Shown here: positions 23,690-28,917 of the stretch, one piece after another | How the letters are laid out: each line of letters opens with the position of its first letter | Numbering within the stretch: position 1 is the first letter of the stretch | Source: Bacteroidota bacterium | GTDB lineage: Bacteria > Bacteroidota > Bacteroidia > Chitinophagales > Saprospiraceae | DNA length: 64,000 bases | Direction of reading: 5' to 3' | Assembly (NCBI GenBank): GCA_029557915.1 | Contig: JAKQHS010000190.1 | Coordinates: 1 to 64,000, forward strand | Translations under genes and position numbers: made by a program | The notes under the pieces: generated by a model | Told to the model about the DNA's origin: nothing | The model's database searches: none | What the model saw: the letters and a program-made list of their open reading frames with translations, nothing else

Positions 23690-24925
23690 ATGCAAAAAAT
23701 AGTATGTCCGGCCTGTAATCACGCTTTTCACGCGGAAGAAGTCATTAGCCGCCAACTGACCCGGGACCTTGAAAAAAAATTCAGGGAGAAGGAAGAATCC
23801 CTGCTCACCGACTTTCAGAAGAAAATGAACCTGCTGGAAGGCCGGGAGCAGGAGCTGGAAGCCAAAATCCGGAAGGAAAACACCTTATTTGCAGAACGCA
23901 TAGAAAAAGAAAAGATAAAAATCCAGGAACAAATCCGGATCCAGCAGGAACGGGATTTCAGAATCAAACTCGACACCCTGGAAAAAGAACGAAATGAACA
24001 GGCCGCCCGGCTGGAAGCCCTGACCCAGGCCGCGGTCGAGAATGAACAACTGAAACGGAAGCTGGGGACTTTAAAATCGGACCTCGAACTCCAGATGCAA
24101 ATCAAAATGACGGAAGAGCTCGGCAAGGACCGTGAGCAAATACGCAGGGAGGAATCCAGAAAAGCGGAATTGCGCCAAAGGGAACTTGAAAAACAACTGG
24201 ATGATCAGAAAAAACTCATCGAAGACCTGCAGCGGAAGACCCGCCAGGGCTCCAGCCAGGCGGTCGGTGAAGCCCAGGAACTGGCCATTGAGGATTATCT
24301 CAGGGAACAGTTTCCCCTGGACGAGATTGAAGAAGTGCGCAAGGGGGTCCGGGGGGCCGATTGCATCCAAAGAGTCCATACCCGGCTTATTCCCAACGCG
24401 GGAACGATTTATTATGAAAGCAAAAGGACCAAGGATTTCCAGGCCGGCTGGATTGAAAAATTAAAGGAAGATATGAGGCTGGTGGGCGCAGACCTGGGCA
24501 TTCTGGTGACCCAGGCCATGCCCAAGGATATGCCGCACATGGGTGAGCGCCAGGGGATTTGGATCTGCAGCTATGAAGACTTTAAACCCCTGGCGGGCAT
24601 CCTGCGTCACGGTTTGATCGAAGTGGCTACCGCCCTTCGTTCCCAGGAGAACAAATCCGATAAACTCCACCTGCTCTATACCTACCTCACCGGCAATGAT
24701 TTCAAGATGCAGATAGAAGCCATCGTGGAAGGGTTTAAACAAATCCAGGATGATTTGCAGAAAGAAAAAATTGCCATGCACCGGCTCTGGGCGCAAAGGG
24801 AGAAAATCATCGACAAGGTACTGCTCAATACCTCCCAGTTTTACGGCAGTGTCAGGGGTATTGCCGGGAGTGCGATCCCGGTGATTAGCGTACTGGACCT
24901 GCCCGGCGAACCGGAGTCCCTTTGA
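23690..24925 (+). CDS. DUF2130 protein with coiled coil and PD-(D/E)XK-like core
   Basis: A 411-residue protein. The N-terminus has a half zinc-knuckle CPACNHAF (two cysteines), then a long charged coiled coil (about 25-190). The conserved DUF2130 domain (about 200-360) includes EDYLREQFPLDEIEEVRKGV, GADCIQRV, GTIYYESKRTKDFQAGWIEK and ADLGILVTQAMPKDM. Asp224 and the Glu243-Ser-Lys245 triplet sit as the D and E-X-K of PD-(D/E)XK nucleases, so this may be a DNA- or RNA-cutting enzyme; DUF2130 function is not established. The C-terminus returns to helices (MQIEAIVEGFKQIQDDL). No signal peptide. It opens a three-gene run in which all products have coiled coils; the gap to the next gene carries a weak hairpin, so the three may or may not be one operon. 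Confidence 0.85.
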   Translation: MQKIVCPACNHAFHAEEVISRQLTRDLEKKFREKEESLLTDFQKKMNLLEGREQELEAKIRKENTLFAERIEKEKIKIQEQIRIQQERDFRIKLDTLEKERNEQAARLEALTQAAVENEQLKRKLGTLKSDLELQMQIKMTEELGKDREQIRREESRKAELRQRELEKQLDDQKKLIEDLQRKTRQGSSQAVGEAQELAIEDYLREQFPLDEIEEVRKGVRGADCIQRVHTRLIPNAGTIYYESKRTKDFQAGWIEKLKEDMRLVGADLGILVTQAMPKDMPHMGERQGIWICSYEDFKPLAGILRHGLIEVATALRSQENKSDKLHLLYTYLTGNDFKMQIEAIVEGFKQIQDDLQKEKIAMHRLWAQREKIIDKVLLNTSQFYGSVRGIAGSAIPVISVLDLPGEPESL

Positions 24926-24931
24926 TCTGAA

Positions 24932-24957
24932 AAAAGCCGAACTTGGTAAGGGCTTTT
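24932..24957 (+). terminator. Weak hairpin between DUF2130 gene and coiled-coil gene
   Basis: AAAAGCC/GGCTTTT stem with a 12-nt loop just after the DUF2130 stop. It ends in TTTT followed by A, so it may only attenuate. Confidence 0.4.
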
Positions 24958-25027
24958 AAGGCACTCAGCGATAAGATGAAAGAATTCCTGTTAAATCCCC
25001 GAATTTTACACGCATTAAACACAAGGC

Positions 25028-25576
25028 ATGCTTAACCAACTCAATGAATTGTTTCAATCGGCCAACCTGGACGGGAAAAGCCTTGAATTTCTCAATAATG
25101 CCATCAAAGCCCAGGCCCTGCAGGGTTTTGACTACCTCAAATTCAAACAATCGATCAAGGCGCTGCAGGACATGAGCATGAGCGAGGAAATGGCCATCCG
25201 GTCCGCCTTTTCCACCGCTTCCACCATGGGGATCACCAAACAGAAGATCCTGGAAAACATCCAGCATTACCAGGGTGTGTTGAACAAAGAGAAGTCTGAA
25301 TTCGATTCTGCCCTGCAAAAACAGACCAATACCCGCATCAACCAGAAACAAAACGAAACGTCCTACCTGCAGGAAAAAATCAAAGCGCATCAGGCGCAGA
25401 TCCTCGAATTGGAAAAACAGATCAAGGAATTCCAGTTTAAAATCGACAATGCCGACAAGGAAATCGAAGAGGCCCGCCAAAAGATCCTGGACACCAAAGA
25501 GAGGTTTGAAGAAACCTATACGCACTACATGGACGTGCTCCGGAGCGACATAGAAATATTCAACAAATATTTATAA
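25028..25576 (+). CDS. Coiled-coil protein of unknown function
   Basis: An 182-residue cytosolic protein I cannot name. The first half is helical and contains LEFLNNAIKAQALQGFDYLK and a segment SMSEEMAIRSAFSTASTMGI. The second half (about 85-175) is a near-continuous coiled coil rich in Gln, Lys and Glu (QKQNETSYLQEKIKAHQAQI, then KQIKEFQFKIDNADKEIEEA). No membrane helix. It lies 24 nt before the membrane protein at 25601, so the two are almost certainly co-transcribed and may form a complex through their helices. Confidence 0.75.
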   Translation: MLNQLNELFQSANLDGKSLEFLNNAIKAQALQGFDYLKFKQSIKALQDMSMSEEMAIRSAFSTASTMGITKQKILENIQHYQGVLNKEKSEFDSALQKQTNTRINQKQNETSYLQEKIKAHQAQILELEKQIKEFQFKIDNADKEIEEARQKILDTKERFEETYTHYMDVLRSDIEIFNKYL

Positions 25577-25600
25577 TTTTAAACTTAAATCATTGATATC

Positions 25601-26614
25601 ATGGCAGAAACACCGTTCAACCCGGCTCCCGCTAAACCCAAGTCCTTCTGGAAAAGGCCGGAAGGAGTCACGGGCACCATTGTCCTGCTTGGTTTGCTGG
25701 CAGGCGGAGGGTTCCTGTTGTACAAGGCCCTGCCTACCCTCATTGCCCTGGCCAGCAATATGCTGACCCTGGTCCTGATGCTCCTGGCGCTGGGCGCCAT
25801 CATCTACATGGTCCTTGACCCGAAGATGAGGGCCCTGGTGGGGTATGCCTATAAAAGCATCATGCGCTGGGTCACCGGCCTCTTCATCACCATTGACCCC
25901 ATCGGCATTCTCAAAAATTATGTGGAAGACCTGGAGGACAATTTATCCAAAATGAGCACCCAGATCGGCAATCTGAAAGGCCAGATCCGCAAGCTCACCA
26001 CCATGGTCGAAGAAAATACCAAGGAGATCCAGCAGAATATGGTGATCGCCTCCAAAGCCAAAGAACTGGGCCAGGAAAACCAGATGATCCTCGCCAGCCG
26101 GAAAGCGGCCCGCCTTAAGGAAGTAAATGTGAAATACGACGAGCTCCGGGGTAAAATGGATATACTTTACCGGGTGCTCACAAAAATGTACCAGAATTCA
26201 GAGGTCCTCCTGGAAGATACCCGCGACCAGGTCAAAATCAAGGAAGAGGAAAGAAAAGCCATCCGGGCTTCCCATGGAGCCATGCGTTCGGCCATGGCGG
26301 TATTGTCCGGCGATAAAGACAAACGGGCCATGTTTGACCTGGCCCTTGAAAACATAGCCGATGATGTGGCCGCCAAAGTGGGTGAGATGGAACGTTTCAT
26401 GGAATTGTCTTCAAACTTCATGAACAGCGTGGACCTGCAAAACGGCGTATTTGAAGAAGAAGGGGCCCGAATGCTGGAACAATGGGAGAAAGAAAGCCAC
26501 CTGCTCCTGATGAGCGGCAAGGAAAAAGCCAACAACGATTACCTCAACTTGGGAGAGCCTCAGAAGGCCACCCGCAGCAGCGGAGGTTATGAGGGCATGT
26601 TTGACGCCAAATAA
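25601..26614 (+). CDS. PspA-like coiled-coil membrane protein
   Basis: A 337-residue protein. After a short Pro-rich head there are two membrane helices (about 25-45, GTIVLLGLLAGGGFLLYKAL, and 50-70, MLTLVLMLLALGAIIYMVL), then IGILKNYVEDLEDNLSKMST and a long helical part to about 290, ending in a Gly/Ser tail. The stretch from DPIGILKNYVEDLEDNL resembles the start of PspA/IM30 coiled coils, which bind stressed membranes and belong to the ESCRT-III superfamily; here the coil is fixed to the membrane by its own helices. This resemblance is by eye. Coupled to the upstream coiled-coil gene, it could form a membrane-repair or membrane-shaping device, but the function is unknown. Confidence 0.75.
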   Translation: MAETPFNPAPAKPKSFWKRPEGVTGTIVLLGLLAGGGFLLYKALPTLIALASNMLTLVLMLLALGAIIYMVLDPKMRALVGYAYKSIMRWVTGLFITIDPIGILKNYVEDLEDNLSKMSTQIGNLKGQIRKLTTMVEENTKEIQQNMVIASKAKELGQENQMILASRKAARLKEVNVKYDELRGKMDILYRVLTKMYQNSEVLLEDTRDQVKIKEEERKAIRASHGAMRSAMAVLSGDKDKRAMFDLALENIADDVAAKVGEMERFMELSSNFMNSVDLQNGVFEEEGARMLEQWEKESHLLLMSGKEKANNDYLNLGEPQKATRSSGGYEGMFDAK

Positions 26615-26672: not shown

Positions 26673-27785
26673 TCAGTTCCCCAGTTTGTTTATTTCATCA
26701 AACAAGGCTTTGAAGGCATCCACATAATTGCCACCCCTCCGGGTGTTGACCGGTTGTCTTCCGTAAAATTGTTCTATAAAATTATCTCCGCCGGTCCAGG
26801 TGGTATGGAGGACGCCCAGGTAATTGTTTTTCACCGCCGGAGTGGCGAATTTCCTTTGGTTGACCATGATCTTCAATTGTTCCAGGGTCACATCGGGAAA
26901 GCGCCAGGGACAGGTAAGCACCCGGAAACCTTTTAAGGCAAACAGGATGGCCGTCGGATCCGGCCGTTCATAATGCCAGTCACATATCAAAACGTCTTTC
27001 GGGATCAGATCAATCGCACGGGAGGTGTTGTTGTAACTTCCCTCCCAGAAACCGACCCCGGTGGCCTTTCCGTCGATCAGCCGGTCCCCCCAGATCCAGA
27101 GTTCCTTGTTGTTTTTGGCCAGGTGGTTCCGGATTGCGGTCACTTCGCCGGCAAACAATTCCGCCTTGTCCCGTCCCGAACAACGGGGACATTTTTCTTC
27201 CCCGAGAAAAAAGACTTCATCCATCCCTGCGTGAAAGGCATCGGCTTCAAAGACTTCAACCAGTTCGTCCATGGCCTCGAAGACCACCTGGTGAACCTCC
27301 GGGTGCAGCGGGCAATAGCTGAAACAATACAATCCCCATTCATTGGGCCAGGTCACCGTACTCGAATCCTGCCTCGAAGGAATCCAGGGGGTTTCATTGA
27401 ACTGGGGATAAGCCTTCAGCAAGGGTCCTACCTTATTTGTGGACGATTGGTGGCCGAGCAGGTTGATCTGGGGGATGATCCGGATCCCGCCGGCTTTACA
27501 GGCATTGACGATTTTTTTAACCTGCATCTCGGAAAGGGCGTTGTCCGCCACCAGTTCAGGATGGGATTTGAATTGATACCGGTACCCGATCAGGAATACC
27601 AGGGTATTGACTTTACGGGGCACCAGTTCGGACCGGATGAATTCCGTAAACTTTTCCACGCCATCGGGACTTGGGGCCGACAGGCAGATTCCCCGGACCG
27701 GAAGGATTGAATCCAGCGTACCCTGTGCCGGCGATTCGGCAATCGCGGAGAAGAGGAGGATCAGGAAAAAGGTTATTTTGTTCAT
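26673..27785 (-). CDS. GH20-like glycoside hydrolase, tandem copy 2
   Basis: A 370-residue exported protein with a signal peptide (ends AIAESPAQ) and a TIM-barrel related to glycoside hydrolase family 20 (beta-hexosaminidases). The acid pair is DE in FHAGMDEVFFLGEE (Asp189, Glu190 from this start), as in the GH20 motif. Other marks are RIIPQINLLGHQSS, WGLYCFSYCPLHPE and KCPRCSG, where CxxC may hold a metal or disulphide. There is no GH20b domain in front, so the substrate may differ from chitin or glycan GlcNAc. ATG 27785 is chosen; the in-frame TTG at 27794 is nearer the upstream stop. The next gene upstream is a close paralogue with nearly the same length, and both should be one transcript. 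Confidence 0.85.
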   Translation of the reverse strand: MNKITFFLILLFSAIAESPAQGTLDSILPVRGICLSAPSPDGVEKFTEFIRSELVPRKVNTLVFLIGYRYQFKSHPELVADNALSEMQVKKIVNACKAGGIRIIPQINLLGHQSSTNKVGPLLKAYPQFNETPWIPSRQDSSTVTWPNEWGLYCFSYCPLHPEVHQVVFEAMDELVEVFEADAFHAGMDEVFFLGEEKCPRCSGRDKAELFAGEVTAIRNHLAKNNKELWIWGDRLIDGKATGVGFWEGSYNNTSRAIDLIPKDVLICDWHYERPDPTAILFALKGFRVLTCPWRFPDVTLEQLKIMVNQRKFATPAVKNNYLGVLHTTWTGGDNFIEQFYGRQPVNTRRGGNYVDAFKALFDEINKLGN

Positions 27786-27795
27786 AGCCGGCAAC

Positions 27796-28917
27796 TTATT
27801 TATCTAATTTATTAATTTCTTCAAACAGGACCTTGAAGGCTTCGACGTAATTGCCTCCTCTGCCCGTGTTGACTTCTTTTTTGCCGTAAAACTGGTCGAT
27901 GAATTCTTCCGCCCCCGTCCAGGTGGTATGCAGCATGCCCTGGTAATTGTTTTTCACGGTCCGGGAAGCAGATTTCCGGCTGTCCACCATGATTTTCAGT
28001 TGTTCAAGGCTGACGTCAGGAAAACGCCACGGACAGGTGATGACGCGAAACCCCTTTAAGGCAAACAGGATCGCCGTGGGATCGGGTCTTTCATAATGCC
28101 AGTCGCAAATCACTACGTCTTTGGGGATAAGGTCTATGGCCCGGTGCGTGTTGTTGTAACTGGCTTCCCAATAGCCGATGCCTGTGGTTTTCCCGTCGAT
28201 CAGGCGGTCTCCCCAGATCCAGAGTTCCCGGTTTTTCGATGCCAGGTGGTTCCTGAGCCTGGTCACCTCCCCGGCAAACAATTCGGCATGGTCCAGTCCG
28301 GCACAGCGGGGACATTTTTCATCGCCGAGATAAAACACTTCGTCCATCCCGGCATGGAAGGCGTCCGCTTCATATACATCCATCAATTCATCGATGACTT
28401 TAAACACCACTTTATGAACGTCCGGGTGCAGGGGACAATAACTGAGGCAGTATAAACCCCATTCATTCGGCCATTTCAGGTCCCCTGAGCCCTCTTTCAT
28501 GGGTACCCAGGGCGTTTCATTAAACTGGGGATAAGCCTTTAACAACTGACCCGTTTGCTGAAACCAGGACTGGTGGCCAAGCATATTGATCTGCGGAATG
28601 ATCCGGATCCCTCCCGCCTTACAGGCCTTTACTATTTTTTTTACCTCTTTTTTGGATAAGGCGTTTTCCGCCACCAGTTCCGGATGCGATTTGTATTTAT
28701 AATTGTAATCCACGAGGAGGACCAGGGTATTCACCCTTCGGGTCACCAATTCATCCTTGATAAATTTCACAAAACGGTCTACCCCTTCCGGTTTGGGCAC
28801 CGAAAGGCATATGCCGCGGACGGGAAGAACGGAATCCAGCACCGACTGGGAAGTGGCGGTACCGGAAAGGCTTATTAGAAGGAATAAGGAGACGGTTCGA
28901 ATGAAAAGGTTTGCCAT
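27796..28917 (-). CDS. GH20-like glycoside hydrolase, tandem copy 1
   Basis: A 373-residue paralogue of the next gene downstream (about two thirds identical by eye, co-linear with almost no gaps). The signal peptide ends near ATSQS; the acid motif FHAGMDEVFYLGDE has Asp192 and Glu193, and KCPRCAG and YCLSYCPLHPD are kept. The copies differ most in 115-145 (NMLGHQSWFQQTGQLL against the other copy's NLLGHQSSTNKVGPLL), where substrate loops may lie, which suggests they divided a task after duplication. First gene of the pair; a variant -7 box is 28 nt ahead of its ATG. Confidence 0.87.
   Translation of the reverse strand: MANLFIRTVSLFLLISLSGTATSQSVLDSVLPVRGICLSVPKPEGVDRFVKFIKDELVTRRVNTLVLLVDYNYKYKSHPELVAENALSKKEVKKIVKACKAGGIRIIPQINMLGHQSWFQQTGQLLKAYPQFNETPWVPMKEGSGDLKWPNEWGLYCLSYCPLHPDVHKVVFKVIDELMDVYEADAFHAGMDEVFYLGDEKCPRCAGLDHAELFAGEVTRLRNHLASKNRELWIWGDRLIDGKTTGIGYWEASYNNTHRAIDLIPKDVVICDWHYERPDPTAILFALKGFRVITCPWRFPDVSLEQLKIMVDSRKSASRTVKNNYQGMLHTTWTGAEEFIDQFYGKKEVNTGRGGNYVEAFKVLFEEINKLDK

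Follow-up and report, generated by a model that had tools for sequence, protein, structure and literature searches.

In a Bacteroidota genome of the little-studied family Saprospiraceae we describe a gene pair, g2 and g3, that probably encodes a two-protein, membrane-anchored relative of PspA/Vipp1 within the bacterial ESCRT-III superfamily, with the DUF2130 gene next to it being a separate entity. Within the window, as we call the whole 64,000-nucleotide stretch of DNA that was analysed, inspection of the open reading frames confirmed an earlier sequence-only reading that had placed three neighbouring genes on the forward strand: the DUF2130 gene (23690–24925, 411 residues, PF09903), g2 (25028–25576, 182 residues) and g3 (25601–26614, 337 residues). 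The gap between the DUF2130 gene and g2 measures 102 nt and that between g2 and g3 only 24 nt. All three products contain coiled coils, as had been claimed; this shared character is a weak argument for treating them as a unit. The hairpin reported after the first gene does exist, as a weak, terminator-like element at 24932–24957 on the forward strand, but it is no stronger than in shuffled sequence (z = +0.67). In the window, the neighbours of g3 are g2, DUF2130, GH20 and TonB receptor genes, the GH20-like glycosidase genes forming a tandem of two, 73% identical to each other, downstream on the opposite strand (26673–28917).

Similarity of g3 to PspA and Vipp1

Hydropathy analysis of g3 places hydrophobic stretches at approximately residues 22–50 and 43–76, and the structural model predicts transmembrane helices at approximately residues 20–72. 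Downstream of these, the model features an alpha0-like helix (74–96), an I-D-P motif (D99-P100), three further helices (100–156, 159–235 and 239–305) and a disordered tail, with a mean pLDDT of 70 overall, values of about 90 in the hairpin helices and a pTM of 0.39. When the model was compared with the PDB using Foldseek, the best 14 matches were Vipp1 or PspA without exception, with a lowest E value of 6.2e-4, and CHMP1B/IST1, Asgard ESCRT-IIIB and Shrub were found among the weaker matches. At the medium confidence of this model, the predicted helical fold is that of the PspA/Vipp1/ESCRT-III superfamily.

Neither g2 nor g3 receives a Pfam or NCBIfam assignment above cut-off, and the best sub-threshold Pfam match of g3 is to PF04012 (PspA_IM30), with an E value of 0.018 and 15.1 bits, below the cut-off of 33.9. 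Homology of g3 to bona fide PspA is nevertheless detectable in profile comparisons. A g3 profile matches PF04012 PspA proteins in three distant Bacteroidota genomes (E 1e-5 to 2e-4), and in the reverse direction PF04012 matches a g3 homologue from an ABC operon in another family at 4.2e-8 (33.5 bits, against the cut-off of 33.9), which is the best relative scanned; a PspA HMM matches the ABC-operon homologue at 3.5e-8. A profile search of the window's own genome found no PF04012 match, and the same search of the Saprospiraceae genome G018 returned the g3 gene as its sole match (9e-4). Alignment of g3 to PspA alignments with hhalign gave an E value of 4.4e-6 over 190 columns and paired the g3 stretch VTGLFIT-IDP with a PspA stretch ending in SSMEDP. 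Because of this pairing, the region of g3 ahead of the DP motif, which is occupied by helix 74–96, appears to correspond to the alpha0 position of PspA, and the two transmembrane helices that precede it look like an N-terminal addition to a PspA-like core. Profiles and model together argue that g3 is a divergent PspA/Vipp1 relative; the two membrane helices and the PspA/ESCRT-III-like coil that had been proposed for it from the letters alone are thus borne out by hydropathy, model, Foldseek matches and reciprocal profiles.

The g2–g3 pair, its duplication and the tail of g3

The product of g2 is predicted to be soluble, with no transmembrane segment; its N-terminal region is helical and conserved (FDYLxFKQS... 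SAxxTAsxxGiTkxk), and its C-terminal part is extended and coil-like. Neighbourhoods collected with a g2 profile place g2 immediately before g3 in most loci, as a rule no more than about 100 nt away, making it the usual partner of g3. This pairing spans several families of the Bacteroidia, with or without a DUF2130 gene, and holds in loci of other families where g3 is only 23–36% identical. Among the genomes listed from a sample of the order, all those of the same family have g3, and nearly all of these carry two copies.

The second pair in the window's genome lies on contig C36 (L034:4355–9625), where it heads an operon in the order g2', g3', substrate-binding protein, ABC permease and ABC ATPase. 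The binding protein combines an NMT1 domain with OmpA; it has a hydrophobic N-terminal segment and carries the peptidoglycan-binding OmpA domain at its C-terminus. ABC operons with g2–g3 recur in Saprospiraceae, in other Chitinophagales families and in another family of the class. The ABC ATPase, permease and binding-protein–OmpA genes that accompany the C36 paralogue are absent from the operon of the window copy. In family f30 (L239 and L240), the pair is followed by a transmembrane protein of about 355–361 residues that lacks an OmpA match and replaces the binding protein with OmpA; the one in L240 has a weak match to Ppx/GppA. A g3 tree separates an ABC-linked (B) type from a transporter-free (A) type and puts the window copy in the latter; the tree was built by a quick method, shows long branches and weak support at many of its forks, and is used here for gross clades only. 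The pair usually occurs in duplicate in Saprospiraceae, the window holding the paralogue that lacks transporter genes. In the ORF lists and in Pfam scans of part of the neighbours, no AAA+ ATPase gene was recognised beside either copy. Among the neighbours of the window g3 named above, none was recognised as a classical Psp partner (PspB, PspC, PspF or similar), and the single PspC-domain match of this genome lies on another contig, C25.

The A-type g2 has been lost in many loci (L038, L101, L111, L135, L149 and others), where g3 follows directly after gpsA. Seven genomes with gpsA–g3 loci were checked, and the g2 that they hold is of the ABC type only; going by these loci, a g3 of the window type may not strictly need a g2 of its own.

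The disordered tail of g3 ends with a Y-x-x-[LFMI]-[LFM] motif (also reported as Y-x-x-[LFM]-[FL]) in 141 of 146 loci, usually with L-D-L-N before it. In the window g3 it reads Y330-E-G-M-F, within GGYEGMFDAK in the region of residues 316–337. As the motif is kept in 38 of the 41 g3 loci in which no adjacent g2 was detected, its dependence on an adjacent g2 is not supported. In layout, and purely by analogy, the motif is similar to the C-terminal docking (MIM) motifs of ESCRT-III proteins.

DUF2130 as a nuclease-like neighbour

The protein encoded at 23690–24925 is, by its match to PF09903 (E 1.1e-71, 241.5 bits against a cut-off of 26.7), a clear DUF2130 member with nothing unusual about it. 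It has an N-terminal CxxC (C6 and C9) and no membrane segment by hydropathy. Residues D224, E243, S244 and K245 sit where the sequence-only reading had put them, and D224, E243 and K245 are invariant across the 12–13 DUF2130 proteins aligned. The AlphaFold2 model (mean pLDDT 81) consists of a single long coiled-coil helix of about 170 residues (15–183), a core and C-terminal helices. The core begins with a helix (193–207), three strands (212–215, 225–229 and 238–245) and a second helix (253–265); its modelled order of helix, three strands, helix and strand, with D224 just ahead of the second strand and E243 and K245 on the third, is the alpha-beta-beta-beta-alpha-beta arrangement with D...E-x-K of PD-(D/E)XK proteins. 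Foldseek searches of the PDB with this model returned Holliday junction resolvases, SPARDA, BstEII, Bax1, MspJI, DdmD and BamHI, with a moderate best E value of 4.6e-3 and probabilities mostly of 0.9–0.98 among the leading matches; a few unrelated non-nuclease proteins, such as Rep15, are scattered among them. Invariant residues, modelled core and mostly-nuclease matches make the PD-(D/E)XK reading, as a fold, well supported. A sequence search of solved structures with DUF2130 and g3 gave only coiled-coil or artefact matches, the viral contigs searched held one relative of DUF2130, and a search of the available literature library did not find a functional paper on DUF2130. The protein is best read as a cytosolic nuclease-like protein, separate from g2–g3 and sharing the locus with them by descent.

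Weighing the alternatives and a proposed role

The sequence-only reading had considered that DUF2130, g2 and g3 might jointly form a membrane-tethered nuclease device for defence or DNA processing. Both of its fold predictions, for the first and the third gene, proved right, and the nuclease-like core modelled in DUF2130 would suit such a device, as would the recurrence of DUF2130 as a same-strand neighbour in several other Saprospiraceae loci: the order DUF2130–g2–g3 is found on the same strand in L045, L110, L125 and L126, and DUF2130–g3 without g2 in L040, L106, L114 and L118. The transporter-free type includes one subclade whose upstream genes are gpsA and/or DUF2130 and another in which sbcD–sbcC take that place; this nuclease pair lies immediately upstream of g2–g3 in L099:2309–7190 and similar loci, and in 18 loci sbcC is no more than 2.5 kb away, so that genes of a nuclease type turn up here repeatedly. 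The order of the trio is, however, inconstant across relatives. Of 41 Saprospiraceae genomes sampled, 11 were found to carry DUF2130, which adjoins g2–g3 in 3 of those 11; it is a same-orientation neighbour in a handful of genera, reversed in a single clade of five and missing from most, and at some loci gpsA or sbcDC takes its place. The only relative available from the same genus is G595, from which L095 comes; there g2–g3 follow a methyltransferase-like gene, and a different contig carries DUF2130, with unrelated genes after it; in G599, DUF2130 follows gpsA with no g3 alongside. In addition, the 102-nt gap gives no strong sign of an operon, and PADLOC models returned coiled-coil noise only for all three genes, which speaks against a defence system. 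The gene-order data therefore rule against the trio as a single operon or device, the conserved unit being g2–g3 instead. We consider the three-gene device very improbable and unsupported; an ancestral gpsA–DUF2130–g2–g3 order followed by losses could explain the pattern with no functional link, and the repeated presence of nuclease-type genes (DUF2130, SbcCD) upstream may be coincidence.

Two further explanations concern the pair itself. The likeness of g3 to PspA could reflect convergence of long helical hairpins, with g3 being an unrelated coiled-coil membrane protein. The low Pfam score of the window g3 fits this, as do other coiled-coil families matched at similar E values, coiled coils being prone to spurious matches (TACC_C in 7 of 15 g3 members, against PspA in 6). 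The explanation is nevertheless an improbable one given the reciprocal profile matches to bona fide PspA with an intermediate homologue at 4.2e-8, the matched DP motif and alpha0 position, and top Foldseek matches confined to Vipp1 and PspA; the hhalign controls were also far weaker, with E values of 0.0068 over 18 columns for g2 against PspA and 0.0025 over 13 columns for g2 against g3. Alternatively, the window pair could act in trans as a regulator or scaffold for the ABC importer of its paralogue, and not on the membrane in general. Paralogous pairs do head operons for an SBP-OmpA protein, permease and ATPase in this and many other genomes, including other Bacteroidia families, and nearly every genome of the family carries both an A and a B copy. 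Yet the A-type copy was not seen beside a full set of ABC genes and forms a clade of its own, and in several B-type loci of the family, too, no ABC genes are linked, leaving the importer explanation unlikely, if less so than convergence.

Our preferred explanation remains that g2 and g3 constitute a membrane-anchored PspA/Vipp1-like system distinct from DUF2130. The added pair of N-terminal transmembrane helices would anchor g3 in the inner membrane, with the alpha0-like helix and PspA-like hairpin predicted to face the cytoplasm. There g3 would probably assemble into a polymer on the membrane and so stabilise or reshape it, possibly under stress, and g2 would bind g3 as its soluble coiled-coil partner and probably control that assembly. 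As the paralogous module is encoded with an ABC importer carrying an OmpA binding protein, a function connected with transport and the integrity of the envelope is suggested. The pair is best read as an inner-membrane, ESCRT-III-like scaffold with a putative role in envelope stability.

Operons of a related kind have been described by Ravi et al. (2024), who reported PspA and transmembrane-bearing Snf7 homologues whose operons also encode an AAA+ ATPase, an ABC ATPase, a permease and a PBPB-OmpA protein, as well as a Bacteroidetes neighbourhood in which a further coiled-coil gene is present (PMC11237479). In the published operons, of which OGG56892.1 marks an example, the AAA+ ATPase is a two-domain protein and PspA accompanies it (PMC11237479). 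Compared with that published description, from which the likeness is drawn, our loci share the transmembrane-bearing PspA-superfamily protein and, in the L034 paralogue, the set of ABC ATPase, permease and SBP-OmpA protein; they differ in that no AAA+ gene was recognised beside the pair, the genome lacks a PF04012 match and g2 stands in the place of the partner; the transporter genes, moreover, have been lost from the window copy. With PspA/Vipp1 (IM30, PF04012), g3 shares the predicted fold, the DP motif after an alpha0-like helix, the helical hairpin and profile homology, whereas the two N-terminal transmembrane helices, the tail motif, the sub-cut-off Pfam score and the neighbours set it apart. 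The superfamily fold is also what it would share with ESCRT-III (Snf7/CHMP), from which it differs in its transmembrane anchor and in having no gene for a Vps4-like ATPase alongside. The kind of system is therefore already reported (PMC11237479); new here are a transporter-free duplicate with no AAA+ gene recognised beside it, the lack of a PF04012 match in the genome and the conserved tail motif.

A more far-reaching proposal, which we put forward tentatively, is that duplication from an ancestor coupled to an ABC importer has left nearly every Saprospiraceae cell with one transporter-linked copy and one copy for general envelope remodelling, the latter being a free-standing, transmembrane-anchored ESCRT-III-like system that has g2 as its partner, manages with no Vps4-type ATPase and carries its tail motif as a docking tag. 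If this were true, the near-invariant tail motif of g3 would, as this tag, bind a further factor. The loci described here offer an example of an ESCRT-III-like protein linked to an ABC importer that has a subunit of the peptidoglycan-binding kind, and they bear on the question, posed in PMC11237479, of how assembly is controlled in PspA homologues that lack an AAA+ ATPase. Proteins so far annotated as hypothetical, in a single large family from the environment and elsewhere in the Bacteroidia, thereby gain a testable role as probable PspA/ESCRT-III relatives.
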